Translations under genes and position numbers: made by a program
Assembly: GCF_014084125.1 (NCBI RefSeq)
Contig: NZ_CP048405.1
Location: 6,572,001 to 6,636,000 of the forward strand
From: Streptacidiphilus sp. PB12-B1b
GTDB taxonomy: Bacteria; Actinomycetota; Actinomycetes; Streptomycetales; Streptomycetaceae
Direction of reading: 5' to 3'
DNA: 64,000 bases
Notes under the pieces: generated by a model
The model's input: only the letters and a program-made list of their open reading frames with translations
Database searches by the model: none
What the model was told of the DNA's origin: nothing
In this document: positions 18,622-39,572 of the stretch, piece after piece
Layout: each line of letters starts with the position of its first letter
Position numbering within the stretch: position 1 is the stretch's first letter

Positions 18622-18648
18622 TAACAGCGCGTGGCTGTTAACGTTAAC
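18622..18648. promoter_or_regulatory. Overlapping palindromes upstream of the first cluster operon
   Basis: TAACAGC-GCGTG-GCTGTTA (18622-18640) is a perfect inverted repeat with 7-base arms. It overlaps GTTAACGTTAAC (18637-18648), a perfect 12-base palindrome. The block lies about 100 bases before the methyltransferase start in A/T-richer DNA. Dyads of this size and place are typical operators; the bound protein is unknown. Confidence 0.45.
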
Positions 18649-18748
18649 GAGAATTCATTTCCGTAGGCGGCCGGACGCAGACGTTCCGTGTGCCGAGCGG
18701 ATTTCCCGCAATGGCTCTGCCGGATCGATTAAACCCAGGTAGGTGACG

Positions 18749-19504
18749 ATGGACCCGGATTTCTACTCGCGGGTCGCCGACGAGTTCGGCGAATACACCA
18801 GCGGGGGGCTGCGTACCGATGTCTTTCCGGACGGCGACCCGGAGGCCGCCTTCGACGAGCTGGCGAGGGGCCTGGGCGGCCCGGACGCCCGGCTGGTCGA
18901 CATCGGCTGCGCCGACGGGCGCAGCCTGCTGAGGATCGCCCCGGCGTTCGGCAGCGTGCTCGGCATCGACATGTCGGCGTCGATGCTGGAGTCCGCCGAG
19001 CGCAAGCGCGAGGCGGTGGGGCTGGACGGCGTCAGCTTCGAGCAGCGCGACGCCTCCCGTACCGGCCTTCCGGACGGGGAGGCCGACGTGCTCACCTCCC
19101 GGCGCGGGCCGCTGTTCCCGGAGGAGTTCCGCAGGGTGCTCAAGCCCGGCGGCCACCTGGTCTACATGGGCATCGGCGAGACGGACGCCCGTGAGCTGAA
19201 GGAGGTCTTCGGCCGGGGCCAGCTGTATGGCCGCTGGGACGGCAGGCCGGTGATGGACGAGGTGGTGGAGGAGCTCACCGCGGCCGGTTTCACGGTGGTG
19301 CTGGAGAAGGCGTTCCGGACCGAGGAGTTCTACCACTCGCCGGTCGAGCTCGACACGTTCCTGCGCCAGGTGCCGATCTTCGAGGACTACGACACGGAGG
19401 CGGACCGGCCGCTGTTCGAGCGCTATGTCGCCTCGGCCGCAGGCGACCGCGGTGTCCGGCTCGACCGGCACTGGTTCGTCGTCCAGGCGCGGGTGACGGC
19501 ATGA
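18749..19504 (+). CDS. Class I SAM-dependent methyltransferase
   Basis: This protein of 251 residues is numbered from ATG 18749, which has AGGTAGG just upstream; an in-frame GTG lies two codons earlier. The Rossmann fold shows motif I VDIGCADGRS at about 50-59, the acidic ribose-binding residue after GSVLGID, and the post-motif LKPGGHLVYMG at 131-141. It would transfer a methyl group to a small molecule; the substrate is not readable. The C-terminal region (SPVELDTFLRQVPIFEDYD) is shared with UbiE/arsenite-type small-molecule methyltransferases. It is the first gene of the cluster operon and its stop overlaps the start of the next gene by 4 bases. Confidence 0.8.
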   Translation: MDPDFYSRVADEFGEYTSGGLRTDVFPDGDPEAAFDELARGLGGPDARLVDIGCADGRSLLRIAPAFGSVLGIDMSASMLESAERKREAVGLDGVSFEQRDASRTGLPDGEADVLTSRRGPLFPEEFRRVLKPGGHLVYMGIGETDARELKEVFGRGQLYGRWDGRPVMDEVVEELTAAGFTVVLEKAFRTEEFYHSPVELDTFLRQVPIFEDYDTEADRPLFERYVASAAGDRGVRLDRHWFVVQARVTA

Positions 19505-20760
19505 CGATCTTCGACCAGCTCGACTCCGAGGTGCGCAGCTACAGCCGGCAGTGGCCGGTCGTGTTCGACCGGGCCGAGGGCAGCCGGCTGTTCTCCGAGG
19601 ACGGCCGCCCCTACCTGGACTTCTTCGCCGGTGCGGGCGCGCTCAACTACGGGCACAACAACCCCTTCCTCAAGCAGGCGCTGCTGGACTACATCGCCCG
19701 GGACGGCGTCGCGCACGCGCTGGACATGTTCACCGTGGCGCGGCGCGACTTCCTCGAAGCCGTCCAGGACGTCCTGCTGGCGCCGCGGGGGCTCGAGTAC
19801 AAGGTGGTCTTCCCCGGCCCGGGCGGCGCCAACGCGGTCGAGGCGGCGCTGAAGCTCGCCCGGCGGGTCACCGGGCGGCAGTCGGTGGTGAGCTTCACCA
19901 GCGGCTTCCACGGGATGACGATGGGGGCACTCGCGGTCAGCGGCAACCTGGCCAAGCGCGCCGCCGCCGGAGTGCCGCTGACCTCGACGACCGCGCTGCC
20001 CTACGACGGCTACCCGGGCATCGGGGAGAGCGGCCCGCGCTACCTCGACCAGCTGCTGTCGGACCCGGGCAGCGGCCTGGACCGGCCCGCCGCCGTCATC
20101 GTGGAGACCGTCCAGGGCGAGGGCGGGCTGCGCACCGCCGGCGCGGACTGGCTGCGCGAACTCGCCGCCGTGTGCAAGCGGCACGAGGTGCTGCTCATCG
20201 TGGACGACGTGCAGATGGGCTGCGGCCGCACCGGCTCGTTCTTCAGCTTCGAGGACGCCGGGATCACCCCCGACATGGTCTGCCTGTCCAAGTCCATCGG
20301 CGGCTACGGCCTCCCGCTGGCCCTCACCCTCATCCGGCCGGAACTGGACGTCTGGAAGCCCGGCGACCACAACGGCACCTTCCGCGGCGTGAGTTCGTCC
20401 TTCGTCACCGGGGCGCAGGCGCTGCGCTCCTACTGGAGCGACGGCACGCTGGAGAAGTCCACCCGCGAGCGCGGCGAGCGGATCGCGGCGGCGCTGGGCG
20501 CCGTCGCCGCCGAGCACTCCGGGGCCGAGCTGGAGGTCCGGGGCCGCGGCTTCGCGGCCGGACTGCGCATCCCCGAGCCCGGCGCGGCCCGCGCGGTGTG
20601 CGCCGCGGCCTTCGAGAACGGCCTGCTCATGGAGACCTCCGGGGCCGCGGGCGACGTGGTGAAGCTGCTGCCCCCGCTGACCATCGGCGACGACGACCTG
20701 GACGAGGGTCTCGCCATCATCCGTACCTGCGTGGGCCGGGTACTCGCGCGGGGCAAGTGA
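19501..20760 (+). CDS. EctB-like class III aminotransferase (first copy)
   Basis: This 419-residue PLP-dependent enzyme resembles L-2,4-diaminobutyrate:2-oxoglutarate aminotransferases (EctB/DoeD/PvdH). These make diaminobutyrate from aspartate semialdehyde. The PLP site is complete: D235 in LIVDDVQMGCGRTG and K264 in CLSKSIGGYG, plus the phosphate loop GPGGANAVEAALKLARR. No ectA or ectC genes are nearby, so ectoine is not the product. A close paralogue lies at 29454-30707. The start overlaps the methyltransferase stop and the next gene begins 12 bases later, so the genes are co-translated. Its substrate may be a methylated relative of aspartate semialdehyde, given the glutamate mutase in the cluster. 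Confidence 0.88.
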   Translation: MTIFDQLDSEVRSYSRQWPVVFDRAEGSRLFSEDGRPYLDFFAGAGALNYGHNNPFLKQALLDYIARDGVAHALDMFTVARRDFLEAVQDVLLAPRGLEYKVVFPGPGGANAVEAALKLARRVTGRQSVVSFTSGFHGMTMGALAVSGNLAKRAAAGVPLTSTTALPYDGYPGIGESGPRYLDQLLSDPGSGLDRPAAVIVETVQGEGGLRTAGADWLRELAAVCKRHEVLLIVDDVQMGCGRTGSFFSFEDAGITPDMVCLSKSIGGYGLPLALTLIRPELDVWKPGDHNGTFRGVSSSFVTGAQALRSYWSDGTLEKSTRERGERIAAALGAVAAEHSGAELEVRGRGFAAGLRIPEPGAARAVCAAAFENGLLMETSGAAGDVVKLLPPLTIGDDDLDEGLAIIRTCVGRVLARGK

Positions 20761-20772
20761 GGAGTCACCGCT

Positions 20773-21774
20773 GTGCCAGGCAAGATTCCTGAGATCGACC
20801 TTGAGCTGTGGCACAAGGCGTCCGACGCCGAACGCGCCCCGATCGCCGCGGAGTTGGACGCCGCGCTGCGCAGCACCGGCATGTTCCTGGTGTCCGGGCA
20901 CGGCGTGCCGCAGGCCGTGATCGACGACTACCGGGCCACCGCCAAGCGCTTCTTCGCCCTGCGCAGGGAGGTCAAGGCGCAGTACGCCATCGAGGCCGCG
21001 TACGACGGCGGCTGGCTCGAGATGCATCCCCCCGGCGGGGTCGGGGTGCCGCTGAACGAGGGCGAGGAGGCCCCGAGCGCGCCGGACCTGCACGAGTCCT
21101 TCTACTCCGGGCCCGGGCACCGTACCGGCGACGAGCGGCGGGACCGGTTCAACTACCCGGCGAACCGCTGGCCGGCCGAGCTGCCCGAGCTGCGGGCGGC
21201 GGCGGACGCGTACACGACGCACATGGTGCGGGTGGTGCAGGCGGTCAACGAGGTGCTCGCCGTCACGCTGGGCCTGCCGGAGGACTTCTTCACCTCGCGG
21301 GCGCAGAAGGCGACCTGGACGCAGAACGCCAGCTGGTACCCGTCGTACGCGAGCATCGGCGAGGTCGCCCGCGGCCAGTTCCGCAACGGGCCGCACACCG
21401 ACCTGGGCACCGTCACGCTGCTCAGCCGTCAGCGGGGCGTGGGCGGGCTGCAGGCGTGGACCGAGCAGGACGACTGGTTCTCGCCGCCGTACAGCCCGGA
21501 CTCGCTCATCGTCAACCTCGGTGACCTGATGGAGCTGTGGACCGACGGGCGCTGGCGGTCGCTGAAGCACCGCGTGCTGCCGCCCAGCCCGGCGGCCCCG
21601 GACGAGGAGCTGCTGTCGCTGGTCTTCTTCTTCGAGACCGACCCGGACACGCTGATCGAGCCGTTGGCCGCCCCGGTCGGCGGCGGACGGGGGCTGTCGC
21701 CGGCGTACGCGCGGCGAACAGTCCTGGAGAAGCTCGGTGTCCCGCCCGAATCCATCCCGGAGGCTGAAGCATGA
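20773..21774 (+). CDS. Isopenicillin-N-synthase-like 2-oxoglutarate/Fe(II) oxygenase lacking the RxS arginine
   Basis: This 333-residue non-haem iron enzyme has a DIOX_N-type N-terminus (PEIDLELW, TGMFLVSGHGVP). Its 2-oxoglutarate oxygenase core carries iron ligands H208 and D210 (NGPHTDLGTVT) and H266 (SLKHRVLP). In most 2-oxoglutarate-using members an Arg-x-Ser follows the distal His and holds the co-substrate carboxylate. Here the segment reads ELLSLVFFF, so Leu280 replaces Arg. That suggests a changed or absent use of 2-oxoglutarate, perhaps an oxidase or a different co-substrate pose. Possible roles are hydroxylation, desaturation or ring closure of an amino-acid-derived intermediate. 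It starts at GTG after GAGGAGT and overlaps queC by 4 bases. Confidence 0.85.
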   Translation: MPGKIPEIDLELWHKASDAERAPIAAELDAALRSTGMFLVSGHGVPQAVIDDYRATAKRFFALRREVKAQYAIEAAYDGGWLEMHPPGGVGVPLNEGEEAPSAPDLHESFYSGPGHRTGDERRDRFNYPANRWPAELPELRAAADAYTTHMVRVVQAVNEVLAVTLGLPEDFFTSRAQKATWTQNASWYPSYASIGEVARGQFRNGPHTDLGTVTLLSRQRGVGGLQAWTEQDDWFSPPYSPDSLIVNLGDLMELWTDGRWRSLKHRVLPPSPAAPDEELLSLVFFFETDPDTLIEPLAAPVGGGRGLSPAYARRTVLEKLGVPPESIPEAEA

Positions 21775-22451
21775 GCAGAATCGTCGCCGTCGTGTCCGGC
21801 GGGATCGACTCCGTCACCATGGCGCACCACTTGGCCGCCGAGGGCCACGAGTTGCACGTCATGGCCGTCGACTACGGCCAGCGGCACCGCAAGGAGCTGG
21901 AGTTCGCCGCCGCCGCCGCGGAACGGCTCGGCGCGCCGTACGAGGAGGTCGACCTGCGCTCACTGCGGGGCGTCATGCGCGGATCGTCGCTGACCGACCC
22001 CACCGTGGCCGTGCCCCGCCCGGGCCAGTCGGTCGGCGGGAACCCCAACATCGTGCCCAACCGCAACGCCGTGCTGCTGTCGGTGGCCTTCGCGCTGGCG
22101 GTCACGGTGCAGGCGGACGCCGTGGCCTTCGGCGTCATGGCCGAGGACGTCGGCCCGTCCGACACCTCGCCGGAGTTCCTGCGGCTGTTCCTGGACATGG
22201 AGCGGGTGGCGACCAAGGGGTCGCTCGCGCCCGGGGTCGAACTGCTCGCTCCGTTGATCGAACTGCCCAAGACCGGAGTCGTCGCCCTCGGCGAGAAGCT
22301 CGGCGTGCCCTGGGACAGGACCTGGACGTGCTTCCGCGGCGAGGAGATCCACTGCGGCGCCTGCGCGGCGTGCGTGGAGCGGCGCGGGGCCTTCGCCGAT
22401 CTGGGCATCACGGACCCGACGGACTACCGCGAAGCACTGATACCGCAGTGA
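21771..22451 (+). CDS. queC: 7-cyano-7-deazaguanine (preQ0) synthase QueC
   Basis: This 226-residue enzyme turns 7-carboxy-7-deazaguanine into the nitrile preQ0 using ATP and ammonia. The PP-loop SGGIDS is at 9-14. The zinc site is complete: C187, C195, C198 and C201 in CFRGEEIHCGACAACVERR. Length and motifs match ordinary QueC and not the fused QueC-like proteins of anti-phage systems. It sits in an unbroken run with QueE, QueD and FolE, so the whole GTP-to-preQ0 route is here. No QueF or Tgt is present in the window. Confidence 0.95.
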   Translation: MSRIVAVVSGGIDSVTMAHHLAAEGHELHVMAVDYGQRHRKELEFAAAAAERLGAPYEEVDLRSLRGVMRGSSLTDPTVAVPRPGQSVGGNPNIVPNRNAVLLSVAFALAVTVQADAVAFGVMAEDVGPSDTSPEFLRLFLDMERVATKGSLAPGVELLAPLIELPKTGVVALGEKLGVPWDRTWTCFRGEEIHCGACAACVERRGAFADLGITDPTDYREALIPQ

Positions 22452-22503
22452 CCGGTGCCGGCCGCCTGACCGGCGGCCCCGACACGGAAGGAGGCGGTAC
22501 CGC

Positions 22504-23217
22504 GTGGAACCGGAACTCGTAGTCAACGAGATCTTCGGCCCGACCGTCCAGGGTGAGGGCCGTTCCATGGGCCGCAGGTGCGCGTTCCTGCGGCTGGGCG
22601 GCTGCAACTTGTCGTGCACCTGGTGCGACACGCCCTACACCTGGGACTGGACCGGCATCGGCGACTCCGGGGTCAAGTACGACCCCCGCAAGGAGCTGCA
22701 CCGCCGGACCGTCCGCGAGGTGGCCGAGGAGCTGCTCGCGTTCGGCGTCGAGCTGATCGTCATCTCCGGCGGCGAGCCGCTCGGCCAGCAGAACCGACTG
22801 GTCCCGCTGGTCGAACTGCTCACCGCACGGGGCCTGGAGATCGAGATCGAGACCAACGGCACGCACGCCGCGGACCCGGCCCTGGTGGCCGCCGGGGTGC
22901 GCTTCAACGTCTCGCCCAAACTGGCCCACTCGGGCGATCCGGTCGACCGGCGGATCGTGCCGGGCGCGCTGCGGAGCCTCGCGGTGACGCCGGGCACCAC
23001 CTTCAAGTTCGTCTGCCGCAACGGCGACGATCTGGACGAAGTGGCCGGACTGGTCGAGGAGTTCGACCTGGACTCGGTCTGGATCATGCCGAAGGGACAG
23101 ACCGGCGCCGAGGTCAACCGGCACATGGCCGAACTGGCCGACGCGGTGATCGCACGGGGCTGGAATCTCACCACACGCCTGCACACCTTGTTGTGGGGCG
23201 ACACGCGAGGTGTCTGA
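22504..23217 (+). CDS. queE: 7-carboxy-7-deazaguanine synthase QueE (radical SAM)
   Basis: This 237-residue protein starts at GTG with a strong GGAGG site. It contracts the ring of 6-carboxy-tetrahydropterin to 7-carboxy-7-deazaguanine, using a [4Fe-4S] cluster and SAM. The cluster cysteines are C34, C38 and C41 in GGCNLSCTWCDTPYTWDW. The typical QueE start EIFGPTVQGEGRSMGR binds substrate and SAM. The SGGEPL motif is also present. It lies between queC (52-base gap) and queD (39-base gap). Confidence 0.95.
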   Translation: MEPELVVNEIFGPTVQGEGRSMGRRCAFLRLGGCNLSCTWCDTPYTWDWTGIGDSGVKYDPRKELHRRTVREVAEELLAFGVELIVISGGEPLGQQNRLVPLVELLTARGLEIEIETNGTHAADPALVAAGVRFNVSPKLAHSGDPVDRRIVPGALRSLAVTPGTTFKFVCRNGDDLDEVAGLVEEFDLDSVWIMPKGQTGAEVNRHMAELADAVIARGWNLTTRLHTLLWGDTRGV

Positions 23218-23256
23218 GCGCGTGGCTCAATCAAGCAAGAAAGGTGAATCGGAGAC

Positions 23257-23619
23257 ATGACGCTGCGCATCACGAAGAAGTTCGAGTTCTCTGCCAGCCA
23301 TCAGCTCTCCGGCCTGGCCGAGGGACACCAGTGTGCCCGGCTGCACGGCCACAACTACGTGGTCGAGCTGGAGCTGAGCGCCGATCTGACGCAGCTGACG
23401 CCGACGGGGTTCGTCCGTGACTACGGCGAGTTGGCCCCCTTCAAGACCTGGCTCGACCAGACGCTCGACCACCGCCACCTCAACGACCTGGTGGACGACA
23501 ACCCCACCGCCGAGAACCTGGCGGTGTGGCTCTACGAGCACTGGTCGAAGGAGTTCCCGGAGCTGACCTCCGTGCGTATCTCCGAGACCCCCAAGACGTG
23601 GGCCGAGTACCGGCCCTGA
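23257..23619 (+). CDS. queD: 6-carboxy-5,6,7,8-tetrahydropterin synthase QueD
   Basis: This 120-residue enzyme of the PTPS fold converts 7,8-dihydroneopterin triphosphate to 6-carboxy-tetrahydropterin. The zinc ligands are H15, H30 and H32 and the catalytic Cys is C26, in HQCARLHGHNY. The substrate-anchoring Glu is in the C-terminal ETPKTW motif. The length is typical for bacterial QueD. A GGAG site precedes the ATG. It supplies QueE in the same operon. Confidence 0.95.
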   Translation: MTLRITKKFEFSASHQLSGLAEGHQCARLHGHNYVVELELSADLTQLTPTGFVRDYGELAPFKTWLDQTLDHRHLNDLVDDNPTAENLAVWLYEHWSKEFPELTSVRISETPKTWAEYRP

Positions 23620-23704: not shown

Positions 23705-24298
23705 ATGTCTGTGACCACGCTGGTGCAGGAGGATGACATCGACGCGGAGAAGCCGCAGGAGGAGGACCCCCTGGTCGGACTCGCCCGGCAGCTGCTGAAG
23801 GAGATCGGGGAGGACCCCGACCGCGACGGGCTGCGGGACACCCCGGCGCGCTTCGCCCGCTGGTGGCGCGAGTTCATCAACTACGAGCCCGGCTCGGTCG
23901 GCACCCTCTTCGAGTCGAACGGCACCCAGCAGCTGGTGGTGGTCTCGGACATCGAGGTCTGGTCCCTCTGCGAGCACCACCTGCTGCCGTTCAACTGCTC
24001 GGTGACGATCGCCTACCGGCCCACCGAACGGCTGCTGGGCCTGTCGAAGTTCGCCCGGATCGCCCACCGGCACGCGCACAAGCTCCAGGTCCAGGAGCGG
24101 CTGGTCTCCGAGATCGCCGAGGACATCGCCGCGCTCAGCGGGACGGAGGACGTGGCCGTCATCGCCAAGGGCGAGCACCTGTGCATGACGATGCGCGGCA
24201 TCAAGGCCGCGGCCCAGATGACCTCGACGGCCTACCGCGGGGCGTTCGGCGAGGACGCCGGGCTGCGGGCCGAGCTGTTCAACCTGCTGCGTCCCTGA
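23705..24298 (+). CDS. folE: GTP cyclohydrolase I, cluster-dedicated
   Basis: This 197-residue enzyme opens and rearranges GTP to 7,8-dihydroneopterin triphosphate, the first step toward preQ0. Zinc ligands are visible as C89 and H92 in LCEHHLLPF and C160 in GEHLCMTMRG. The conserved LSKFARI and LQVQERLVSEIAEDI segments are present. An acidic 20-residue N-terminal extension precedes the enzyme core. Streptomyces have another folE for folate, so this copy in the preQ0 operon is best read as dedicated to the metabolite. Confidence 0.93.
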   Translation: MSVTTLVQEDDIDAEKPQEEDPLVGLARQLLKEIGEDPDRDGLRDTPARFARWWREFINYEPGSVGTLFESNGTQQLVVVSDIEVWSLCEHHLLPFNCSVTIAYRPTERLLGLSKFARIAHRHAHKLQVQERLVSEIAEDIAALSGTEDVAVIAKGEHLCMTMRGIKAAAQMTSTAYRGAFGEDAGLRAELFNLLRP

Positions 24299-24418: not shown

Positions 24419-25888
24419 ATGGAAACACCATCGGTGTCAGGAATCGGCCGGATCTCCACTCGGCCTTCGGGGCGGGAGATGCCGACGACCCTGCACCGCG
24501 AACCGGCCGTCGCCGCCGGTGAGTCGACCAAGCAGAACACTCCGATCGGATTCCGCCAGGGCTGCGCCAACAGCGGGCCGGGGGCCACGCCCTTCGGCCG
24601 GCAGCTGCGCAACCTGCGCCTGCAGAACGGGCTGTCCCAGAAGCAGCTGGCGCGCTCCAGCACGCTCAGCGTCCGGGCCATCCGCGATCTGGAGAACGGG
24701 AGGGTGCGCCAGCCCCGGGCGGACTCGCTGCGCCTGCTCGCCGACGCCCTCGGCCTGAGCGCCCCGCAGATGAACCGGCTGACCAACGACCACGCGCCGG
24801 GCTTCCCCGCGGGGGCGGCCGGACCGGCCATGAGCGGCCCGTTCATCGGCCGGGAGCAGGAGGTGGCGGTGCTGACGACGATGCTCGGCGCCGAGCACCA
24901 CCGCCTGGTCACCATCACCGGCATCGAGGGCGTCGGCAAGACCCGGCTCGCCCGGGAGGTGGCCCGCGCGCTGGAGGCGGCCGAACAGGCGACGGTGCTC
25001 TGGCTGCCCCTCGACGACCCGCTCCGCAGCGGACGGGCGACCGCGGGGGCCCCGGAACCGCCCAGCTGGCTGCGGGAGATCGTGCACTCCGGGCCCGACA
25101 GCCGCCGACGCCTGATCGAGGCCATCGGGGAGTCCAACGGCCTGCTGGTCCTCGACGGCGCCGGGCCGCAGGACGGGCTGGCGGACATCACCGCCGGCCT
25201 GGTGGCCGCCTGCCCCCGGCTGCGCATCCTGGTCACCACCAGGAACCCCGTGGACATGCCGCTGGACTCGCTCTTCCCGCTCGCGCCGCTGCCGGTGCCG
25301 CTGTCCGACACTGAACCGGCCGAGCTGGAGCAGGTGGCGTCGGTGGCGCTGCTGCTCGCCCAGGCGAAGCGGATCCAGCCGGCGTTCCGTCCCGACCCGC
25401 ACACGCTCGCGGACGTCGCCCGGATCTGCCGCACCCTCGACGGCCTTCCGGCCGCGCTCGAATCCGCCGCCCACTGGAGCCTGATCTACTCCCTGCGGCA
25501 GCTCTCCCACCAGCTCACCACCGAGCCGCTCACGGTCGCACGCCGACCGCACGGCGGCCGTCAGCAGGCGGACGCCTACGCGTCGGTCCAGCACACCATC
25601 ACCACCCTGAGCAGCCGTCAGCGCGACCTGCTGTCGGCCATGGCCCACGGCACGCCGCAGCCGGCGCCGCACCGGGCCTCGCGCGACCTGGACGGCTACT
25701 GGTCGGTGCCGGAGGTGGCGGACACCATGGGCCTGACGGCGGCGGAGTGCGCCGACGACATCTACCACCTGCTCATCCTCGGCATGCTCCGCCGCATCGA
25801 CCACCACGACGTGGCGATGTTCAGCGTTCTCAACATCGTCGGCATCGCCGGGCGGAGCGCCATCGCCGGGCAGCACACAGCCGCATGA
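24419..25888 (+). CDS. XRE/STAND-type transcriptional regulator
   Basis: This 489-residue regulator has a 55-residue unstructured lead and an XRE helix-turn-helix at about 60-115 (LRLQNGLSQKQLARSSTLSVRAIRDLE). A NB-ARC-like ATPase begins with FIGREQEVAVL and carries Walker A GIEGVGKT at 168-175. The family usually ends in TPR or WD sensor repeats; here the protein stops soon after the ATPase and a winged-helix-like segment, so the sensor part is absent or reduced. It is the only likely pathway-specific regulator gene in the cluster. It starts after GAGGAG and runs 30 bases from the next gene. It could drive the two intergenic regions with 11-base repeats, but that is untested. Confidence 0.8.
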   Translation: METPSVSGIGRISTRPSGREMPTTLHREPAVAAGESTKQNTPIGFRQGCANSGPGATPFGRQLRNLRLQNGLSQKQLARSSTLSVRAIRDLENGRVRQPRADSLRLLADALGLSAPQMNRLTNDHAPGFPAGAAGPAMSGPFIGREQEVAVLTTMLGAEHHRLVTITGIEGVGKTRLAREVARALEAAEQATVLWLPLDDPLRSGRATAGAPEPPSWLREIVHSGPDSRRRLIEAIGESNGLLVLDGAGPQDGLADITAGLVAACPRLRILVTTRNPVDMPLDSLFPLAPLPVPLSDTEPAELEQVASVALLLAQAKRIQPAFRPDPHTLADVARICRTLDGLPAALESAAHWSLIYSLRQLSHQLTTEPLTVARRPHGGRQQADAYASVQHTITTLSSRQRDLLSAMAHGTPQPAPHRASRDLDGYWSVPEVADTMGLTAAECADDIYHLLILGMLRRIDHHDVAMFSVLNIVGIAGRSAIAGQHTAA

Positions 25889-29240: not shown

Positions 29241-29282
29241 TGAACACCTCAAGCAGAGAAGGGTGGGGAAAGCGCTGCGTCG

Positions 29283-29409: not shown

Positions 29410-29453
29410 GGCCGTGACGCGTGAGCCCAGGCTCGGAAGAAAGGACATGCGAG

Positions 29454-31527: not shown

Positions 31528-32418
31528 TCACTCGGCTCGTCCCTCGCCCAGCACGCCGTAGACCCGGCGCAGCCGGCGGCTGGAGTGGGTCTCCTGGAAC
31601 GGCCGACGGCCGTGCAGCATCCGCCGGTTGTCCCACAGCAGGCCGACGCCGCGTTCCAGCAGCACGGCCTCCGCGGTGACCGCCGCGGCGGCGGAGACCT
31701 CGTCGAACGCGTCCATGGCGGCCTGGAGTTCCGTCGGCACCGGGGTGTTCTCGGCGGCGAACGCCTGTTCGATGTACAGGCGGACGTAGCGCAGCTCGTA
31801 GCCGTCGGGCGTGCTGGTGAGCACCGGCTGCCGCTTGATCCTGACACCCGCCATCTGGTCCTTCACGTCGAACGGCACCGGCCGGCTCAGCTCGGCGACG
31901 TGCGCCGGGTCGATCCGGGCGAGCTGCTCGACCAGGCCGTCGACGTCCATCAGCAGCGTCTCTCCCCCGCCGGTCGCCGCGGACAGGCCGAACAGGAAGG
32001 CGACGTCGGGCAGTTGCGGCAACAGGGTGCCGTCGGTGTGGTAGTTGCCCGCCTTGTTGGAGTTCGAGTAGTGGCTGGTCTCCGCGGCCGACGCCTGGAC
32101 CTCGACCGGGTAGATCAGCTCGCCGGAGCTGTACTGCGGGACCGCGCGGAAGAGCGCCCCGAAGAAGTTCCAGTAGAGGGTGGAGAGGTCGTGGTCGCTG
32201 AGCCCCTCGGGGGCGACCCGCACGACGACGCCGCCCGCCTGCCCGCGGACGGCCGCGAGTATCCCGTCGGCCAGCTCCTGGATCTCCGTGCTGGTCGTCC
32301 GGAACGCCTCGGTCGGCCATTTGTCCAGGGGGGTGTCCGCTTCGATGCCCCGCTCCAGCAGCGCCGGGACGGCCGCGCCGGGGATCGTGAACTCCGGGAT
32401 CGTGAATTCCTTTGCCAT
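31528..32418 (-). CDS. TauD/clavaminate-synthase-like Fe(II)/2-oxoglutarate dioxygenase
   Basis: This 296-residue dioxygenase has the proximal HxD in NYHTDGTLLPQLPDVAF (H127, D129). The distal part is in LLWDNRRMLHGRRPFQ with the iron His and the 2-oxoglutarate Arg. Unlike the enzyme at 20773 this one keeps the usual co-substrate residues. Family members hydroxylate or desaturate free amino acids or peptides, as in VioC and clavaminate synthase. It lies 70 bases after the glutamate mutase gene on the same strand, so a substrate derived from 3-methylaspartate is reasonable. The start has no strong ribosome site beyond GAAAG. Confidence 0.83.
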   Translation of the reverse strand: MAKEFTIPEFTIPGAAVPALLERGIEADTPLDKWPTEAFRTTSTEIQELADGILAAVRGQAGGVVVRVAPEGLSDHDLSTLYWNFFGALFRAVPQYSSGELIYPVEVQASAAETSHYSNSNKAGNYHTDGTLLPQLPDVAFLFGLSAATGGGETLLMDVDGLVEQLARIDPAHVAELSRPVPFDVKDQMAGVRIKRQPVLTSTPDGYELRYVRLYIEQAFAAENTPVPTELQAAMDAFDEVSAAAAVTAEAVLLERGVGLLWDNRRMLHGRRPFQETHSSRRLRRVYGVLGEGRAE

Positions 32419-32488: not shown

Positions 32489-34408
32489 TCAGGCATCGAG
32501 CGGCCACTGCCGATAATGGCCCGATGGTATGCGCAGCACATCTCGTTCGACAAGCTGCCAATCGCTGCGCACCGGCGGGTTCTCGGTCCTGCGGCGTTCG
32601 CTCATCCGGCTCCGGTGGAATTCGATGACATCGGCGCTGAACCTGAGCCGACCGGTGTTCAGATAGCGCACCGCGCCATTGACGTCCCGGGCTGTCAGCA
32701 CCTCACCGCGGTTGTAGACGCTGGGCGAGAAGGGGACGTCCAGATAACCGAGGGCGAATGCCTTCACCACGCCCTCCGTGAGGCTTCCGCCGCCGGCCAG
32801 CAGGACGCTCTCGAGGATCTGGTCCACCTCCGCCCGCAGGACGGTGGCCTCCTCACGGACCGTCTGCTCGTCCACCTCGATACCGTCCGCCTCGATCGAG
32901 CCAAGCCGGCTCAGGCGCAGCCCCTCCTGGTTGTCGGCCACCGACGGGATGGTGGTGGCCTCGACCGGTGTCTTGACGATCATCCGGGACGCCCCGGACA
33001 GCCGGCCGGTGGAGGCCGAGGCCACGATCAGCTGCGTCGCCCGCGCCCGGTCCTGCGGGAACGCCGCCATGTGCTGGTGGAAGACGGTGTTGACCTGGAC
33101 CCCGGGATATCCCAGGTTGGCCAGGTATTTCTGGCCCAGTTCGCGCATGACCCTGATGGCGGCGATGTCCTGGGAGCGGTTTCCCTGTTCGGCATATCCG
33201 AGGGAAACCGAGCCCACGCCCTGGGCGGCCGCCAGCATGGCCTCGATCACATTCACCACGATGGCCAGGCTCGGCGGGATCAGGACGGCGGTGAGCGTAC
33301 CGAAGAATTCACGGTCGATGACCACGCCGAACTTCTCGCGGTAGAGGCCGACCAGCCGGTCGACGTACTGCCACCGCCGGAGCGACTGGGCCGGCGCGTA
33401 TTCCTTGAAATAGGGGATGTTGTAGGTGATCGCACCGCCCTCGAAGCCGGTGACGCCGCCGGCGCTCGATATCTCGGCGAGCAGCCGGGGATCGCGGGTG
33501 CTGTGCCGGGTCTGCAGCGGCGTCCGCACCTCGGAGATCATCTGCCGCAGGACGTCGACCCCGTGGTTCACCATGGGGAACCCGTTGAGCGTGGAGGCGC
33601 CGCGCTCCCGGCTCTCCGCGATGGCGTCGCCGGCCTTCTGGTACTCGTTGTTCCGGGTGAGCGAGTCGATCTGGTAGGACAGCACGTCCGCACCGGCCCG
33701 GCGCAGGCCCACGAACGCCGTGCGCTGCTGGACGGCGAGCGCCACGCCCGAGCGCGGCTGCACCAGGAACGGCCGCTCCACCCGGGGGCGCGGCAGGTGC
33801 GCGTGCGCGAACGACGGCTGCCGGAGCAGGAACGCCGCATTGTCCGCCAAGTCCCTTGCGCGGGCACCGGTCGGCCAGGACTCCAGCACCTCGGGCCGCT
33901 GCCGCTGCACGTCCTCCACGGTGAGCCGCTGGTCCGGCGGCGCCGTGCCCGGGTGCGGCGGCCAGGAGGCGACGGCGGGCCTGCCGCGGACCGCCGGGCT
34001 CCTGGTGGCCAGGTCCTCGGCCAGGACCGCGAGGACGGTGGGAATGTCGACGTACGTCGGGAAGACCCGCCGGAACCCCAGGCGCCGGGCCTCGCCGCGG
34101 ATCCGCTCGGCGCTGCCCACGTCGAGGTTTCCACCGGCGTACCAGAGCGCGTCGGTGTCCGGGTACTTGAGCATCAGGTCCGGGAATTGCTTCAGATAGT
34201 GGCGCAGGTGACCGTCCATGCAGGAGATCATCACCACGTCCGCGTCGGCCGCGTGCCTGAAGAAGTCGTCGAGGTTGTTCTGCGTGCCCATGAAGTCGAC
34301 CGCATGGCCTGCCTCAGTGATGGCGTGTTTCAGCAGAGTGAGCCCGACCGAATGAGCGTCGGCGCCGATCCCGCCGAGCACGATCGACCTTGGCGTCGGC
34401 AATCCCAT
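32489..34408 (-). CDS. Fused adenosylcobalamin-dependent glutamate (methylaspartate) mutase
   Basis: This 639-residue protein joins both mutase subunits. Residues 1-140 are the B12-binding S domain with the DxHxxG motif: D17, H19 and G22 in GADAHSVG, then VVMISCMDGH and YAGGNLDVG for the nucleotide tail. Residues about 150-639 are the catalytic E subunit, with SYQIDSLTRNNEY, STLNGFPMVNHGVDVLR and SLGYAEQGNRSQDIAAIR. The reaction converts L-glutamate into (2S,3S)-3-methylaspartate. In most bacteria and in friulimicin- or vicenistatin-type clusters the subunits are separate genes. No methylaspartate ammonia-lyase is nearby, so the product probably feeds biosynthesis. The ATG has GGAG upstream, and the gene leads the operon with the TauD-like and cyclase genes. 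Confidence 0.9.
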   Translation of the reverse strand: MGLPTPRSIVLGGIGADAHSVGLTLLKHAITEAGHAVDFMGTQNNLDDFFRHAADADVVMISCMDGHLRHYLKQFPDLMLKYPDTDALWYAGGNLDVGSAERIRGEARRLGFRRVFPTYVDIPTVLAVLAEDLATRSPAVRGRPAVASWPPHPGTAPPDQRLTVEDVQRQRPEVLESWPTGARARDLADNAAFLLRQPSFAHAHLPRPRVERPFLVQPRSGVALAVQQRTAFVGLRRAGADVLSYQIDSLTRNNEYQKAGDAIAESRERGASTLNGFPMVNHGVDVLRQMISEVRTPLQTRHSTRDPRLLAEISSAGGVTGFEGGAITYNIPYFKEYAPAQSLRRWQYVDRLVGLYREKFGVVIDREFFGTLTAVLIPPSLAIVVNVIEAMLAAAQGVGSVSLGYAEQGNRSQDIAAIRVMRELGQKYLANLGYPGVQVNTVFHQHMAAFPQDRARATQLIVASASTGRLSGASRMIVKTPVEATTIPSVADNQEGLRLSRLGSIEADGIEVDEQTVREEATVLRAEVDQILESVLLAGGGSLTEGVVKAFALGYLDVPFSPSVYNRGEVLTARDVNGAVRYLNTGRLRFSADVIEFHRSRMSERRRTENPPVRSDWQLVERDVLRIPSGHYRQWPLDA

Positions 34409-34680: not shown

Positions 34681-34815
34681 ACACTAGCCAAGAAGTGCAC
34701 ATCCACCAGCGGCAGAAGTGCGGCAGAAGTGCGGCAGAAGCACGCCCATTGACCGGTCCGACTGCCCCTGCGGCGGGGACTGCCTTGCGTGCGGCGCCGG
34801 TTGCCGTGTATGAAT
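34681..34815. promoter_or_regulatory. Divergent promoter pair with 11-base direct repeats (copy 2)
   Basis: CGGCAGAAG occurs three times, at 34710, 34721 and 34732, exactly 11 bases apart, followed by CGCCCATT at 34743. The rightward promoter toward the PhyH-like gene reads TTGCGT (34785-34790), an 18-base spacer and TATGAA (34809-34814). The leftward -10 TAGTGT is the complement of 34681-34686. Layout and several blocks match copy 1 at 29283-29409. Confidence 0.6.
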
Positions 34816-34869
34816 TGGCTGGCAAGAATCTGCGGGAGCTACAAGGTGACTGTGCGAAAGGGTTAATCA

Positions 34870-35796
34870 ATGGGAAACGCCCTCAGCCAGGGGCAGGTCG
34901 ATTTCTACCGCGAGAACGGGTTCTGTGTCGCCGAGGGGATTTTCGACGCCGCGGTGATCGAGCAGGCGCGAGCCGTTGTGGACGGCCTGCTCTCCTCCGC
35001 GGACCTGGCCAGTGTGGCCGAGGCCGAGCCGGAGGACGGCTCCCGGGCCCGCCGCATCTGGGCACCCACCTCACGGGACAAGCTCTTCGCCGGCATCGCC
35101 GAGGACACCCGACTCCTGGACGCCGTCGAGCAGCTGATCGGCCCCGACATCGTCCTGCAGTACTCCAAGCTCAACGTCAAACCCCCGCGCGTGGGCAGCG
35201 TCGTGGAATGGCACCAGGACTTCGCGTACTACCCGCACACCAACACCGACCTGGTCGCCACCCTCATCTACCTGGACGACGCCACCCGCGAGAACGCCTG
35301 CCTGCGCGTGGTCCCCGGCTCCCACCGGCACGGCCTGTTCAAGCACGAGGCCGACGGCCACTTCGTCGGCAAGGTCGCCTCCCCCGCCGACGCCGGACTG
35401 GACGACGCCACCGTCACCGACTGCGAGGGACCGGCAGGATCGGTGGTCTTCATCCACCCCCTGCTCCTGCACAGCTCGGAGAAGAACCTCTCGGACATGT
35501 ACCGCCGCGTCTTCATCCCCTCCTACCGCGCGGCCGACGCCCTGCCCATCTACTACGGCCCGCACGCCGCCCACAACGAGCCCACCGCCAAACTCGTCCG
35601 CGGCACCACCCCCAGGACCGTCCGCAGCGAACCCGGCCAGTGGCAGCTCCCCATCGCCGCAGCCGAGTTCAACTCCCTCTACCAGGTCCAGGAAGGCTCC
35701 CACCTGGGCAACGGGACCAAGACCCCCACCGGCTACTTCGCCCACGAAACCGACACCGACACCAGCACCAACGCCGGTACCGGCGCCTCGATGTGA
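34870..35796 (+). CDS. PhyH-type Fe(II)/2-oxoglutarate dioxygenase
   Basis: This 308-residue phytanoyl-CoA-dioxygenase-fold enzyme has iron ligands H115 and D117 in EWHQDFAYYPHTNTD and distal H201 in PLLLHSSEKN. Arg213 in YRRVFIPSYR fits the co-substrate Arg. RVVPGSHRHGLF is the usual loop after the first strand. EctD, the ectoine hydroxylase, belongs to this family, which is notable beside EctB-like enzymes. The substrate is more likely a cluster-specific amino acid or ligated intermediate. The last 25 residues are Thr/Asp-rich and probably disordered. It has its own repeat-bearing promoter and leads the operon with two ligases and the exporter. Confidence 0.85.
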   Translation: MGNALSQGQVDFYRENGFCVAEGIFDAAVIEQARAVVDGLLSSADLASVAEAEPEDGSRARRIWAPTSRDKLFAGIAEDTRLLDAVEQLIGPDIVLQYSKLNVKPPRVGSVVEWHQDFAYYPHTNTDLVATLIYLDDATRENACLRVVPGSHRHGLFKHEADGHFVGKVASPADAGLDDATVTDCEGPAGSVVFIHPLLLHSSEKNLSDMYRRVFIPSYRAADALPIYYGPHAAHNEPTAKLVRGTTPRTVRSEPGQWQLPIAAAEFNSLYQVQEGSHLGNGTKTPTGYFAHETDTDTSTNAGTGASM

Positions 35797-35808
35797 ACAT
35801 GAACGGAG

Positions 35809-35844
35809 CCCCGGCGCAGGGCCCGAACAAGCCCCGCGCCGGGG
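35809..35844 (+). terminator. Intra-operon hairpin before ATP-grasp ligase B
   Basis: CCCCGGCGC (35809-35817) pairs with GCGCCGGGG (35836-35844) around an 18-base loop. It lies between the dioxygenase stop and the AAGGAG site of the next gene. It may reduce reading into the downstream genes or stabilise the upstream message. Confidence 0.45.
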
Positions 35845-35866
35845 ACGAGAAGCAACAAGGAGCATC

Positions 35867-37120
35867 ATGACCAGCCCGCTGAGCGGCAAGCCCGCTGTCG
35901 TGCTCATGGACCCCTGCGGGCCGAGCATGGGTTTCAAACCCCAGGCCGCCGAGCGCGGGTTGGCCGTGATCTCCGTCTACACCATGCCCCGTGAGCACGT
36001 CCAGAGCCGTTGGCCGGACCACACCACGGGCGACACGGTCAGCATCTACGCGGCGGAGCCGGACCGGATCCGGGCCGAACTCGCCGAGCTGGGCGCCGAC
36101 ATCCGCGCGGTGGTGCCCGCCTCCGACGTGTCCGTGGACCAGGCGGACACGCTGGCCGAGGAGTTCGGGCTGCCCGGCAACGGCGCCCGGCTCGCCGTCG
36201 CCCGCCGGGACAAGTCGGTGATGCGGGAGACGGCCGCGCGGGCGGGGATCCGCATCCCCCGGTACGCGCTGGTCGAGGACGCGGCCGACATCCCCGATGC
36301 CGCGCGCGCCGTCGGCTTCCCCGCCTTCCTCAAGCAGACGACCGGGGGCTCGTCGCACGGCGTCCGGCTGCTGAGCGGCCCCGAGGACGTCGAGGACCTC
36401 TCGACCCTGCACCAGACCGACCACTTCGGCCGGCCGGTCCAGGGCTGGCTGGTCGAGCAGTACGTGCGCGGCCGTGAACTGGGCGTCAACTTCTTGTCGC
36501 ACAACGGCGAGCACCACATCGTGGACATCTGGGAGTACCGGCAGCCCGACGACCGGGACTACGCGTTCCCCTACTGGGACTGGGCGCAGATCCCGCAGGA
36601 CGACCCCGACTGGCAGACGGCCGTCGACTACGTGCGGCCGGTGCTGGACGCGTTCGGCGTGCGCCTGGGCCCCAGCCACACCGAGATCAAGGTCTCGGAC
36701 GGCGACGCCTACCTCATCGAGCTGGGCGCCCGGCTGCCCGCCTACCCCATGATCGACGCGTGGATCGCGCACAGCGACCTCGACCCGCACGGCCAGACCC
36801 TGGCCTGCCGGCTGGGCGAGGTGCCGAAGATCGCGGCCGCGCCGGTGCGGCACCACAGCTTCTGCGGCGCCAACGCCATCCGCAACGACGGTCCGGCCGG
36901 TCGGCTGGTGGAGATCCGCGGACTGGACAAGGTGGAGCAACTGCCCGGCGTGGACAAGCTGGTGGTGGGCCCCCGGCCGGGCGACACGGTGCCCACGACC
37001 GGCAGCATCAAGACCATTCCGGTGCGGGTGAGCGTCTCGGCGCCGGACCACCCGACCCTGGTCGAGCGGCTCACCGCGGTCCGCGAGGCCGTGGACATCG
37101 TGCTGGAACCGGTCCGCTGA
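35867..37120 (+). CDS. ATP-grasp ligase (B)
   Basis: This 417-residue ligase is a paralogue of ligase A at 26870. Shared blocks include the IWEYRQPDDRDY segment and the N-terminal VVLMDPCG-type strand. The ATP-grasp loop is VGFPAFLKQTTGGSSHGVRLL, the clamp GWLVEQYVRGRELGVNFLS, and the metal end HTEIKVSDGDAYLIELGARLP. It should form an amide or peptide bond from an amino acid or a 7-deazaguanine-type partner. AAGGAG precedes the ATG by 5 bases. The exporter starts six bases after its stop. Confidence 0.85.
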   Translation: MTSPLSGKPAVVLMDPCGPSMGFKPQAAERGLAVISVYTMPREHVQSRWPDHTTGDTVSIYAAEPDRIRAELAELGADIRAVVPASDVSVDQADTLAEEFGLPGNGARLAVARRDKSVMRETAARAGIRIPRYALVEDAADIPDAARAVGFPAFLKQTTGGSSHGVRLLSGPEDVEDLSTLHQTDHFGRPVQGWLVEQYVRGRELGVNFLSHNGEHHIVDIWEYRQPDDRDYAFPYWDWAQIPQDDPDWQTAVDYVRPVLDAFGVRLGPSHTEIKVSDGDAYLIELGARLPAYPMIDAWIAHSDLDPHGQTLACRLGEVPKIAAAPVRHHSFCGANAIRNDGPAGRLVEIRGLDKVEQLPGVDKLVVGPRPGDTVPTTGSIKTIPVRVSVSAPDHPTLVERLTAVREAVDIVLEPVR

Positions 37121-37125
37121 TCTCG

Positions 37126-38364
37126 ATGAGGTTCTTGTCCCCGTACCGGGAGCTGTTCTCCCTGCCGAGATTCGGCTCGTCCCTGTTCGCGGCTGTCGCA
37201 GCCAAGCTCAGGCCGGGTATCTCCTCGCTCGCCCTCCTGCTGGAGGTCGCGCACTACCGGGGCTTCGACCAGGCGGCCGTCGTCGTCTCGGTGTCGGCGC
37301 TGGCCGGGGCCACCCTCCCGCTGCGCGGCAGGCTGGTGGACCGCTACGGCTACCCGCTGGTGCTGGCTCCGGCGCTGGTGGCGTACCTGGTGACGCTGGC
37401 CGTCCTGGTGCTGAACGAGAGCACCCGCGGACCGTTCGCCGTCACCCTCGTCAGCGCGTTCCTCTCCGGGCTGTCGGCTCCCCCGATCCAGATCGTGACC
37501 CGGCTGATGTGGGGCACGCTGACCACGGGCACGCTCCGGACGACCGTCCTGTCGCTGGACGCCATGCTGACCGACGTGGGCTTCATCGTCGGTCCGACCA
37601 TCGCGGCCTTCCTGGTGGTGGTCGTGGCGCCGTGGGCCGGTCTGGCCGCCTCCGCGCTGCTGTGCGCCTGCTCGACCCTGCTGCTGCTCTCCCGCAGACC
37701 GCCAAAGCCGCCGAAACGGGAGTCGTCCGAGAAGCGCCACTGGCTGGGCCCGCTGGGCAACCAGGTGCTGCGCCGGACGATGGCGGCGGCGGTCTCCTTC
37801 TTCCTCGGGGTCCGCGCCATCGAGCTGGCCTTCCCCGCCTGGGCGCAGCAGCACCACGCGCCGCTGATGAGCGGGGTGCTGCTGAGCTGCATGTCGGTGG
37901 GCAGCGTGGGCGGCGGGCTCATCCGGGGCGCCCTGCCGGAGCGTTGGTCTGCCAAGGCCACCCTGCCGGTGACGCTGGTCGTGCTGTGCCTGGGCACCCT
38001 GCTGGTGGCGGCGGCCAGCTTCAGCTGGACGGCGGTCCTGATCGCGGCTGCGGCGGTCATGGGCATCGCGCTGGGGCCCAGCTTCGTGGCCCTGTGGGTG
38101 ATGGCGAGCGACCTGTCCCCGGCGGACATGTCCGCGGAGACCCTGTCGTGGATCAGTTCGTGCATGTCGCTGGGCGGGTCCGTCGGCGCGGCGGTCGGCA
38201 GTGTGGTCGCCGCGGCCGCCGGTCCGGCGTCGCTGCTGGTGGTCTCGGCCGTGGCCCTGGCCACCGCGTCCTGGCTGGCGCACCTGGCCATCGCGGCCAG
38301 GCCGGCGGCGGATCAGCTGCCGGGCGTCGACGTCCACCAGGCCGTGAAGGCGGGAGAGCCGTGA
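37126..38364 (+). CDS. MFS exporter
   Basis: This 412-residue membrane protein starts at ATG 37126, just past the ligase stop. About twelve hydrophobic segments are visible, with the family loop GRLVDRYGYPLVL between helices 2 and 3 and a basic middle loop (LLSRRPPKPPKRESSEKRH). It resembles Streptomyces transporters sitting beside small-molecule clusters, which export the product and give self-protection. No other exporter is seen in the cluster. The stop overlaps the start of the next ligase by four bases (GTGA), so the genes are coupled. Confidence 0.82.
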   Translation: MRFLSPYRELFSLPRFGSSLFAAVAAKLRPGISSLALLLEVAHYRGFDQAAVVVSVSALAGATLPLRGRLVDRYGYPLVLAPALVAYLVTLAVLVLNESTRGPFAVTLVSAFLSGLSAPPIQIVTRLMWGTLTTGTLRTTVLSLDAMLTDVGFIVGPTIAAFLVVVVAPWAGLAASALLCACSTLLLLSRRPPKPPKRESSEKRHWLGPLGNQVLRRTMAAAVSFFLGVRAIELAFPAWAQQHHAPLMSGVLLSCMSVGSVGGGLIRGALPERWSAKATLPVTLVVLCLGTLLVAAASFSWTAVLIAAAAVMGIALGPSFVALWVMASDLSPADMSAETLSWISSCMSLGGSVGAAVGSVVAAAAGPASLLVVSAVALATASWLAHLAIAARPAADQLPGVDVHQAVKAGEP

Positions 38365-39572
38365 CGCGCCAGCGGGTGGCCCTGGTGAGCCACGTCGGCT
38401 ACGACACCTACCGGCACCCCGACGGCAGCCTCTTCTTCCCCCCGGACGAGTACGACGTCACGCTGCTGGCCCGGCCCCGGCACCTCGCCCAGGTGTCTCC
38501 CGGGCAGGTGGGCCGCTGCATACCGGTGGACATCGACGCCCCGGCCGGGCTCGCCCTGCCGGAGCTGGTCGGTGACGCCGCGTTCGACTGGGTGGTGGCG
38601 ACCCAGGAGCGGCTGCTGCTTCCGGCGGCGCGGCTGCGCGAGGCCCTGGGCGTGGCCGGGCAGGGAACGGAGCAGACGCTGCTGCTCCGCGACAAGGTGG
38701 CCATGAAGCGCCACTTCTCGGCGCACGGCATCCGGGTCCCGGAGTTCCTGGAGGTCTCCGAACCCGCCCAGGCGGCAGGGCTGCTGGACCGGTTCGGCCA
38801 GATCGTCGTCAAGCCGGTCCACGGCGCCGGCTCCTTCGATGTGCACATGGTCCGCGACCACGACCAGCTGATGCGCCTGCAGCGGCAGGGATTCGCCGGT
38901 CAGGACCGTTACGAGGCCGAGGAGTTCATCACCGGTCGGCAGTTCCACATCGACAGCGCCGTCAGCAACGGCGTGCCGGTCGCCGCCTCCGTCTCGCAGT
39001 ACCTGGACTCGCACGAGACCTTCCCGCTGGACGGGCAGATCCGCTCGCACACCCTGGACGACGGGCCCGACCTCGAACTCCTGCTGGAGTTCAACCGCGC
39101 GGTGCTCGGCTGCATCGGCTGGTTCAGCGGCGCCGCGCACCTGGAGGCGTTCCTCGACACCCACGGCAGTCCGGTGTTCTGCGAGTTGGGCGGACGCCCC
39201 GGCGGCGCCGGGATCGAGACCGCGTTCCGGCACCGCCACGGGATCTCGCTGCTCCACTCCAGCATCCTGCCGCAGCTCGGGCGCCAGGTCGCGGACGGCG
39301 GCCCGCGGGCGCGCCCGGACCGACCGGCGACCGGCTGGTCGATGGTCTACCCGCCCCGGCTGGGCCGTTTCCGCGGCTACGACGCGCTGCCCAAGGCCGA
39401 CTGGCTGCTCCAGCTCACCACGCCCTACCGCCCCGGCGACCCGGTGCGGCCGCCCAGGCGGTCCACGGACGCCCTCGCGGTCGCGGCCGTCTGCGGCCGG
39501 GACGCGGCCGAGGTGGTCGACCGGCTGGCCGAGGTCAAGCGCGGGATCGGCGTCACCATCACCCCGGAGTGA
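38361..39572 (+). CDS. ATP-grasp ligase (C)
   Basis: This 403-residue protein starts at GTG within the exporter stop. It is more distant from ligases A and B. The ATP-grasp core is read in RFGQIVVKPVHGAGSFDVHMV, YEAEEFITGRQFHIDSAVSNG and a metal end GSPVFCELGGRPGGAGIETAF. The N-terminal domain begins VALVSHVGYDTY. Its closest style is the amino-acid or carboxylate ligases linked to small peptides. With A and B, the cluster has three ligases, enough to join up to four units. It is the last gene of the operon; a separate hydrolase follows after 46 bases. Confidence 0.82.
   Translation: MTRQRVALVSHVGYDTYRHPDGSLFFPPDEYDVTLLARPRHLAQVSPGQVGRCIPVDIDAPAGLALPELVGDAAFDWVVATQERLLLPAARLREALGVAGQGTEQTLLLRDKVAMKRHFSAHGIRVPEFLEVSEPAQAAGLLDRFGQIVVKPVHGAGSFDVHMVRDHDQLMRLQRQGFAGQDRYEAEEFITGRQFHIDSAVSNGVPVAASVSQYLDSHETFPLDGQIRSHTLDDGPDLELLLEFNRAVLGCIGWFSGAAHLEAFLDTHGSPVFCELGGRPGGAGIETAFRHRHGISLLHSSILPQLGRQVADGGPRARPDRPATGWSMVYPPRLGRFRGYDALPKADWLLQLTTPYRPGDPVRPPRRSTDALAVAAVCGRDAAEVVDRLAEVKRGIGVTITPE

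Follow-up and report, generated by a model that had tools for sequence, protein, structure and literature searches.

A gene cluster predicted to make a sugar-free conjugate of 7-deazaguanine and amino acids in Streptacidiphilus sp. PB12-B1b

As far as the accessible literature goes, the secreted 7-deazapurines for which a gene cluster is known carry sugars, and echiguanine, for which no cluster is known, may be an exception. In the huimycin cluster of Kutzneria albida (huiA-G), the authors propose, in the accessible part of their paper, that 7-cyano-7-deazaguanine (preQ0) is methylated and that a sugar is placed on its 2-amino group (PMC7439116). PreQ0 itself has an entry in MIBiG, which appears as BGC0001217 in the excerpt available. 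Here we describe a window of 64,000 nucleotides (positions 6,572,001-6,636,000 of the single 7.67-Mb contig of Streptacidiphilus sp. PB12-B1b, NZ_CP048405.1) in which genes for preQ0 synthesis lie among genes for aminotransferases, a glutamate mutase, an aldolase and ATP-grasp ligases. We suggest that these genes probably form a single cluster whose product is a 7-deazaguanine-amino acid conjugate without a sugar, the substrates, order of steps, attachment point and structure being proposed from gene content.

Genes were called with a composition-based gene finder, an open reading frame (ORF) list and Pfam/NCBIfam scans; at the major facilitator superfamily (MFS) exporter and the third ATP-grasp ligase the gene finder had picked two ORFs on the opposite strand, and both genes were restored through the ORF list and Pfam. 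The cluster comprises 20 genes over about 22 kb (window 18743-40410). A preliminary description made from the sequence had recognized a cluster here, which is borne out, but had started it at 18622; the first gene, a methyltransferase, begins at 18743 or 18749, and the right end extends to 40410, the conserved unit also taking in this methyltransferase (18743-19504) and an alpha/beta hydrolase (39619-40410), both of which that description had left unnamed. All of the proteins that it did name (FolE-QueD-QueE-QueC, the mutase, two EctB-like aminotransferases, three Fe(II) oxygenases, three ATP-grasp ligases, the HMGL aldolase, the FAH-fold protein, the Cyclase-family hydrolase, the MFS protein and the regulator) were recovered by the Pfam/NCBIfam scans, and the intact Que motifs that it reported were found by pattern search. 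It had also seen no polyketide synthase or nonribosomal peptide synthetase (NRPS), in agreement with a Pfam scan in which none of the 20 cluster proteins carries a domain of either kind. In window coordinates, the genes are as follows.

18743-19504, plus strand: S-adenosylmethionine (SAM)-dependent methyltransferase, core; Pfam Methyltransf_25/11; 4-base overlap with the next gene.
19501-20760, plus strand: EctB-like class III aminotransferase 1 (AT1; predicted diaminobutyrate aminotransferase), core; TIGR02407 at 610.9 bits, cut-off 552.2.
20773-21774, plus strand: isopenicillin N synthase (IPNS)-like Fe(II) oxygenase, core; DIOX_N and 2OG-FeII_Oxy; HxD...H present, Arg of RxS absent.
21771-22451, plus strand: QueC (7-cyano-7-deazaguanine synthase), core; PF06508 at 162.7 bits.
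22504-23217, plus strand: QueE (7-carboxy-7-deazaguanine synthase, radical SAM), core; PF04055; best model Bsubt_queE, below cut-off; CNLSCTWC.
23257-23619, plus strand: QueD (6-carboxytetrahydropterin, CPH4, synthase), core; PF01242; CARLHGHNY.
23705-24298, plus strand: FolE (GTP cyclohydrolase I), core; PF01227.
24419-25888, plus strand: helix-turn-helix regulator with an AAA/NB-ARC-like region; HTH_3, AAA_16; NB-ARC weak, below cut-off.
25919-26791, plus strand: FAH-fold protein, extension gene; PF01557.
26870-28147, minus strand: ATP-grasp ligase 1 (AG1), core-type; ATP-grasp_4 and LAL_C2.
28206-29252, minus strand: HMGL-type aldolase, 4-hydroxy-2-oxovalerate aldolase family; PRK08195 at 252.1 bits, cut-off 229; TIGR03217 below cut-off.
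29421-30707, plus strand: EctB-like aminotransferase 2 (AT2), paralogue; 601.4 bits against the cut-off of 552.2.
30787-31452, minus strand: Cyclase-family (arylformamidase-like) metal hydrolase; PF04199; TIGR03035 below cut-off; HIGTHVD.
31528-32418, minus strand: TauD-family Fe(II) oxygenase; PF02668.
32489-34408, minus strand: fused glutamate mutase (B12 domain and MutE); TIGR01503 at 445.2 bits, cut-off 390.1; PDB 6h9e at 2e-108.
34870-35796, plus strand: PhyH-family Fe(II) oxygenase, distantly ectoine-hydroxylase-like; PF05721; TIGR02408 at 66.3 bits, cut-off 336.5.
35867-37120, plus strand: ATP-grasp ligase 2 (AG2); ATP-grasp_4 and LAL_C2; 42% identical to AG1.
37126-38364, plus strand: MFS exporter; PF07690.
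38361-39572, plus strand: ATP-grasp ligase 3 (AG3); LAL_C2, ATP-grasp_3; 4-base overlap with the MFS gene.
39619-40410, plus strand: alpha/beta hydrolase (enol-lactonase-like), right end of the unit; PF00561; TIGR02427 below cut-off.

Nineteen of the 20 genes lie collinear, at 69-94% identity, in G325, a genome that belongs to another genus. The flanks differ: to the left G325 carries what looks by eye like a large SARP-type regulator, to the right Pfam identifies a class I aminotransferase and inspection by eye a glutamine synthetase, and the neighbours of the window cluster on either side were unmatched in G325. The unit is therefore bounded by the methyltransferase and the alpha/beta hydrolase, the latter conserved in G325 and in a further genome, G200, and the window cluster is one conserved unit. 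The missing gene is AT2, which was not found in G325 and of which the G325 gap holds no convincing relic. At this interval the joined G325 stretch (16894-17820; L019:893-1819) encodes a 308-residue protein with no Pfam match that is RimK-like by eye. Our genome searches score few candidates per genome and the tallies are lower bounds: the aldolase was matched at E <= 1e-50 in at least 9 of 394 Streptomycetaceae genomes (own included), the mutase at E <= 1e-150 in at least three of 297 family genomes and at least one of 394 class genomes (the window's own), and the methyltransferase at E <= 1e-25 in at least one of 394 class genomes (again its own). G325, with its mutase at 90%, was matched in neither mutase tally and seems to be unsampled there. 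Plasmid records gave only distant homologues, of the oxygenase in two records (39-40%) and of the aldolase in five (32-34%; four annotated, all as dmpG).

A smaller core recurs well beyond these two genomes. The IPNS-like oxygenase was matched at E <= 1e-70 in at least 46 of 394 family genomes, of which the 12 best-scoring (the window's included) were inspected; preQ0 genes lie beside it in ten of these 12, the others being G179 and G377. When named genomes were scanned with the alignment of 12 oxygenases, 25 loci emerged, three of which have the core, in Streptomyces sp. 150FB (L059), Kitasatospora sp. GAS204B (L060) and Streptomyces sp. NBC_01306 (L067), the remaining 22 having the oxygenase without preQ0 genes. 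With L060 and G164 taken as one locus and counted once, there are 12 core loci, one of them (G012) in the genus of the window. FolE, QueD, QueE, QueC, the IPNS-like oxygenase and an ATP-grasp protein are present in all 12, the methyltransferase in 11 and the EctB-like aminotransferase in ten, and MFS genes adjoin several. The recurrence of preQ0 genes, EctB-like aminotransferase and ligase strengthens the link between deazapurine and diamino acid. Among the 12, the extension genes occur in the window and G325 only, the ten other loci having the core without them; the window cluster is thus this core together with the glutamate mutase, an HMGL/FAH/PhyH/hydrolase module, two more ligases, the second aminotransferase and others. 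The preliminary description could place the cluster in no described family, and in the literature searched this holds, but the cluster belongs to a recurrent group in the Streptomycetaceae, of which we found no description. Near 10107 of L081 (Streptomyces iranensis), an oxygenase homologue (69-71%) lies in two pieces with no other core gene matched, a possible relic.

That the core stands alone in ten loci raises the alternative of two pathways lying side by side: one would be the preQ0/diaminobutyrate core, the other an independent ATP-grasp peptide pathway comprising the mutase, the aldolase and the extra ligases. They would give different products and simply travel together. The HMGL/FAH/PhyH/hydrolase set also speaks for this, as in the 20 kb of G200 that were compared these four genes are 66-74% identical and lie beside NRPS-type genes, with no preQ0 genes matched; judged from these gene neighbourhoods, the set resembles an independent movable module, and the FAH gene is near the aldolase gene in the window and in all eight other genomes compared (weaker aldolase matches in the genus, about 30% identical, lie outside this comparison). 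Against two pathways, however, the interleaved gene order is identical in two genera, the core-type AG1 adjoins the aldolase inside the extension, the second EctB copy also sits in the extension, and a single MFS gene and a single regulator were found for both parts. We consider two separate pathways unlikely and prefer a single cluster. The G200 locus itself (L020, G200:C224, 2220-17034) combines the HMGL/FAH/PhyH/hydrolase genes with an ATP-grasp protein and condensation- and adenylation-type proteins (by eye), another uncharacterised cluster type.

At the left end of the cluster, the methyltransferase, AT1, IPNS-like oxygenase and queC genes are spaced at -4, +12 and -4 bases, suggesting that the predicted preQ0 synthesis is co-expressed with the diamino-acid and methylation genes and therefore that the two sets of steps, for deazaguanine and for the diamino acid, go together. 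Pattern search finds CxxxCxxC in QueE, CxxxHGHxY in QueD, CEHH in FolE, and SGGxDS and Cx7CxxCxxC in QueC. All four proteins pass Pfam cut-offs and score below the NCBI equivalog cut-offs (FolE passes a subfamily cut-off), and we regard the predicted preQ0 proteins as divergent. FolE, QueD and QueE are present together, as in 7-deazapurine secondary metabolite clusters. The genome holds two QueC matches, of which the cluster copy is full and the second a weak partial one (23 bits), and a second FolE copy (G000:C1:658688) that presumably serves ordinary metabolism. By its predicted enzymes, the cluster should make a preQ0-type base.

Going by the gene names alone, the que genes might serve tRNA queuosine or 7-deazaguanine modification of DNA, and the EctB copies ectoine synthesis. 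No TGT-family protein (PF01702; tRNA or DpdA type) was found in the genome, with the control positive in all 14 genomes of the genus sample (own included), and no EctC was found in the genome, where the first built-in controls were uninformative and a repeat search in the genus was positive in one of 14 genomes. To the extent that the assembly is complete, the first absence rules out the queuosine and DNA-modification roles and the second the ectoine role; the overlap of queC with the oxygenase gene, within one run that includes the methyltransferase and AT1, also argues against them, and we regard the probability of any such role as next to negligible.

The absence of a TGT-family protein from the genome, and of phosphoribosyltransferases and glycosyltransferases from the cluster, makes it likely that the product is sugar-free; a Pfam scan of the 20 proteins gave no match to either transferase, to UbiD or to Nudix. 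These absences also argue against reading the genes as a toyocamycin/tubercidin-type or huimycin/dapiramicin-type nucleoside antibiotic cluster that carries additional decoration, a reading that we consider very improbable even though the preQ0 genes are shared and, in the accessible part of the literature, a SAM methyltransferase is common to this cluster and huimycin. The lack of a ribosylation gene would also suit echiguanine A, a Streptomyces 7-deazaguanine that presumably has no ribose: the core might make echiguanine or a close relative and the window an elaborated echiguanine, so that the class would not be wholly new. The part of the literature available lists echiguanine A among deazapurine antibiotics, with Streptomyces sp. 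MI698-50F1 as producer. We give this explanation little weight, and retain as the preferred reading a conjugate of the preQ0-type base with amino acids.

For the amino-acid side, AT1 and AT2 are 80% identical and both score above the EctB equivalog cut-off. In the tree, AT2 branches just outside the pair formed by the AT1 proteins of the window and G325 (88/87 and 97/97), and we take it to be a duplicate absent from G325. The set expected of an ectoine cluster (EctB, EctA and EctC) is represented by EctB only, no EctA-type acetyltransferase being matched in the Pfam scan of the 20 cluster proteins; when G006 was examined for an EctB beside EctC as a comparison, no aminotransferase was matched in 3.3 kb. 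Diaminobutyrate is the expected product of the two predicted aminotransferases. The mutase combines a MutE part above cut-off with a B12 domain carrying DxHxxG and aligns with both subunits of solved glutamate mutases, its S-domain models falling short of the equivalog cut-offs set for them (79 for a cut-off of 110, 62.6 for one of 135.8). By our reading of the alignment it keeps the Arg (substrate-binding), Glu and Tyr that we take to be substrate and catalytic contacts in the solved glutamate mutase, and 3-methylaspartate is its expected product. The best PDB match of the aldolase is 4lrs, and its HGH (the HxH site, which we take to bind the metal) and RDG are invariant in all nine aligned sequences.

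All three ligases have LAL_C2, as in L-amino acid ligase peptide clusters, and AG1 and AG2 have profile matches to the solved L-amino acid ligases 30vh, 4wd3 and 3vot. Four other core loci (G164, G246, L059 and L067) each have one ligase seen, whose best match is AG1 at 53-62%; one predicted ligase may therefore suffice for the core, with two extra in the window. One ligase in the simple core loci and three in the window fits one bond per ligase. In the ligase tree AG1 groups with those of G164 and G246 (88/90). Amide coupling to amino acids by the predicted ATP-grasp ligases is the simplest reading.

Several observations weigh against a conjugate assembled in this way. Six of the 12 core loci (G178, G099, G176, G123, G117 and G012) have a different ligase, 25-29% identical, and in the tree, which carries a long-branch warning, L059 and L067 fall in a larger fork with AG2 and the ligases of the unrelated G260 and G036 clusters, their placement within it being unsettled. 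The methyltransferase is missing from G246 within the stretch compared, and the fetched stretches of G178 and G176 showed no EctB-like aminotransferase. The 12 aligned sequences of the IPNS-like oxygenase all keep the HxD...H iron site, but every one lacks the Arg of RxS, which we take to bind 2-oxoglutarate (or the substrate in IPNS); one of two printed PDB alignments (9ovh) reaches this motif. The reaction of the predicted oxygenase is therefore in doubt, and the 12 putative oxygenases without this Arg form a clade. In the aldolase, RDGSY replaces RDGSH, the position of the His, which we take to be catalytic in 4lrs, being Tyr in all nine sequences. Lastly, QueC is constant in the core loci, though an amide to the base's own carboxylate needs no nitrile; the attachment may therefore be at the 2-amino group, or the base and the amino acids may not be amide-linked. 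QueC in 12 of 12 loci together with the methyltransferase in 11 suggests a methoxy-preQ0 base, which would leave the 2-amino group as attachment point.

On the reading that we prefer, FolE, QueD, QueE and QueC would convert GTP via 7-carboxy-7-deazaguanine to preQ0, and the methyltransferase would probably methylate the base to a preQ0 methyl ether, as proposed for huimycin. An EctB-like aminotransferase would convert aspartate semialdehyde to 2,4-diaminobutyrate, the IPNS-like oxygenase would oxidise one of the partners, and the core ligase AG1 would join base and diamino acid by an amide. In the window's extension, the glutamate mutase would supply 3-methylaspartate and the HMGL aldolase and FAH protein, with the PhyH protein and hydrolase, a further acid that is probably hydroxylated; AG2 and AG3 would add the 3-methylaspartate-derived and aldol-derived units, and the MFS protein would export the product. 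The proposal in the preliminary description, a 7-deazapurine or preQ0-derived unit joined by amide bonds to methylated diamino or hydroxy amino acids, survives in part: there is a single conserved unit, a preQ0-type base is expected and amide coupling is the simplest reading, the amide link to the base itself and the methylation of the diamino acids being putative. Tentatively, and with more doubt than conviction, we consider that the product may represent a new class of nucleobase-peptide hybrid, a sugar-free nitrile-bearing 7-deazaguanine made without NRPS, the core, with its one ligase seen, giving a base-diaminobutyrate dimer and the window, with three ligases, a tetramer that also contains 3-methylaspartate-derived and aldol-derived residues. 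There is also a possibility that the preQ0 nitrile and the 1,3-diamine of diaminobutyrate condense to an ectoine-like ring. Every enzyme family is known and the combination is new as far as we found; there is a real chance that the product belongs to a new class of compound. The accessible open literature yielded no paper in which ATP-grasp ligases or glutamate mutase are linked with preQ0 genes, and a match in MIBiG is possible. If the proposal is correct, the product would be a guanine mimic to which amino acids are fused, and its plausible targets would be purine-binding enzymes; the core, at about nine genes in, for example, Kitasatospora sp. GAS204B (about 7.8-16.5 kb of L060), is compact enough for direct expression, making the class testable.

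Outside the cluster, a defence-like island lies to its left (3084-13163, minus strand) and encodes a PD-T4-6/mad6-matching protein, one protein akin to type I restriction proteins and two akin to type I methyltransferases, the latter two matching mad2/mad1, so that it resembles MADS or a type I restriction-modification system; a DUF6119 family protein (4.3e-103; 13261-14949, plus strand) separates it from the cluster. A riboswitch search (B12, preQ1) of 17500-42000 at E up to 1 gave as its sole match SECIS_2, at 28.8 bits where the gathering score is 70.

Among described systems, huimycin resembles the window cluster in having preQ0 genes and a SAM methyltransferase, whereas it has a glycosyltransferase and N-acetylglucosamine, according to the accessible part of the paper, where the window has no glycosyltransferase found and instead has EctB-like aminotransferases, oxygenases and ATP-grasp ligases (PMC7439116). 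With toyocamycin/sangivamycin and tubercidin, as described in the accessible portions of those papers, it shares FolE, QueD and QueE (and, in toyocamycin, QueC/ToyM) for making the 7-deazaguanine base, but no phosphoribosyl pyrophosphate transferase, decarboxylase or Nudix hydrolase is matched in the window, and no nucleoside is expected (PMC6112128, PMC12648386). The HMGL-FAH clusters of G260, G036, G234, G352 and G379 have the two genes adjacent or near one another (36-41% and 48-62% identity) with an adenylation-domain protein and, in four of the five, an Asn-synthase-like protein (by eye); preQ0 genes had no match in the stretches compared. These loci (L023-L032) show a recurrent HMGL/FAH/adenylation set, some with Asn-synthase-like, SDR or PP-loop proteins. 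In the nikkomycin and rhizocticin pathways an HMGL-type aldolase and an ATP-grasp ligase occur together, to our knowledge without preQ0 genes, and we likewise know of no deazaguanine in the pathways of the L-amino acid ligases or DdaF. AG1 (65.8 bits) and AG2 (56.5) score far below the DdaF equivalog cut-off of 840. The window ligases nevertheless have in common with the L-amino acid ligases (30vh, 4wd3, BL00235 3vot, BacD) and with DdaF (dapdiamide A synthase) the ATP-grasp fold and LAL C-terminal domain, and the likeness extends to the assembly of small peptides without NRPS.

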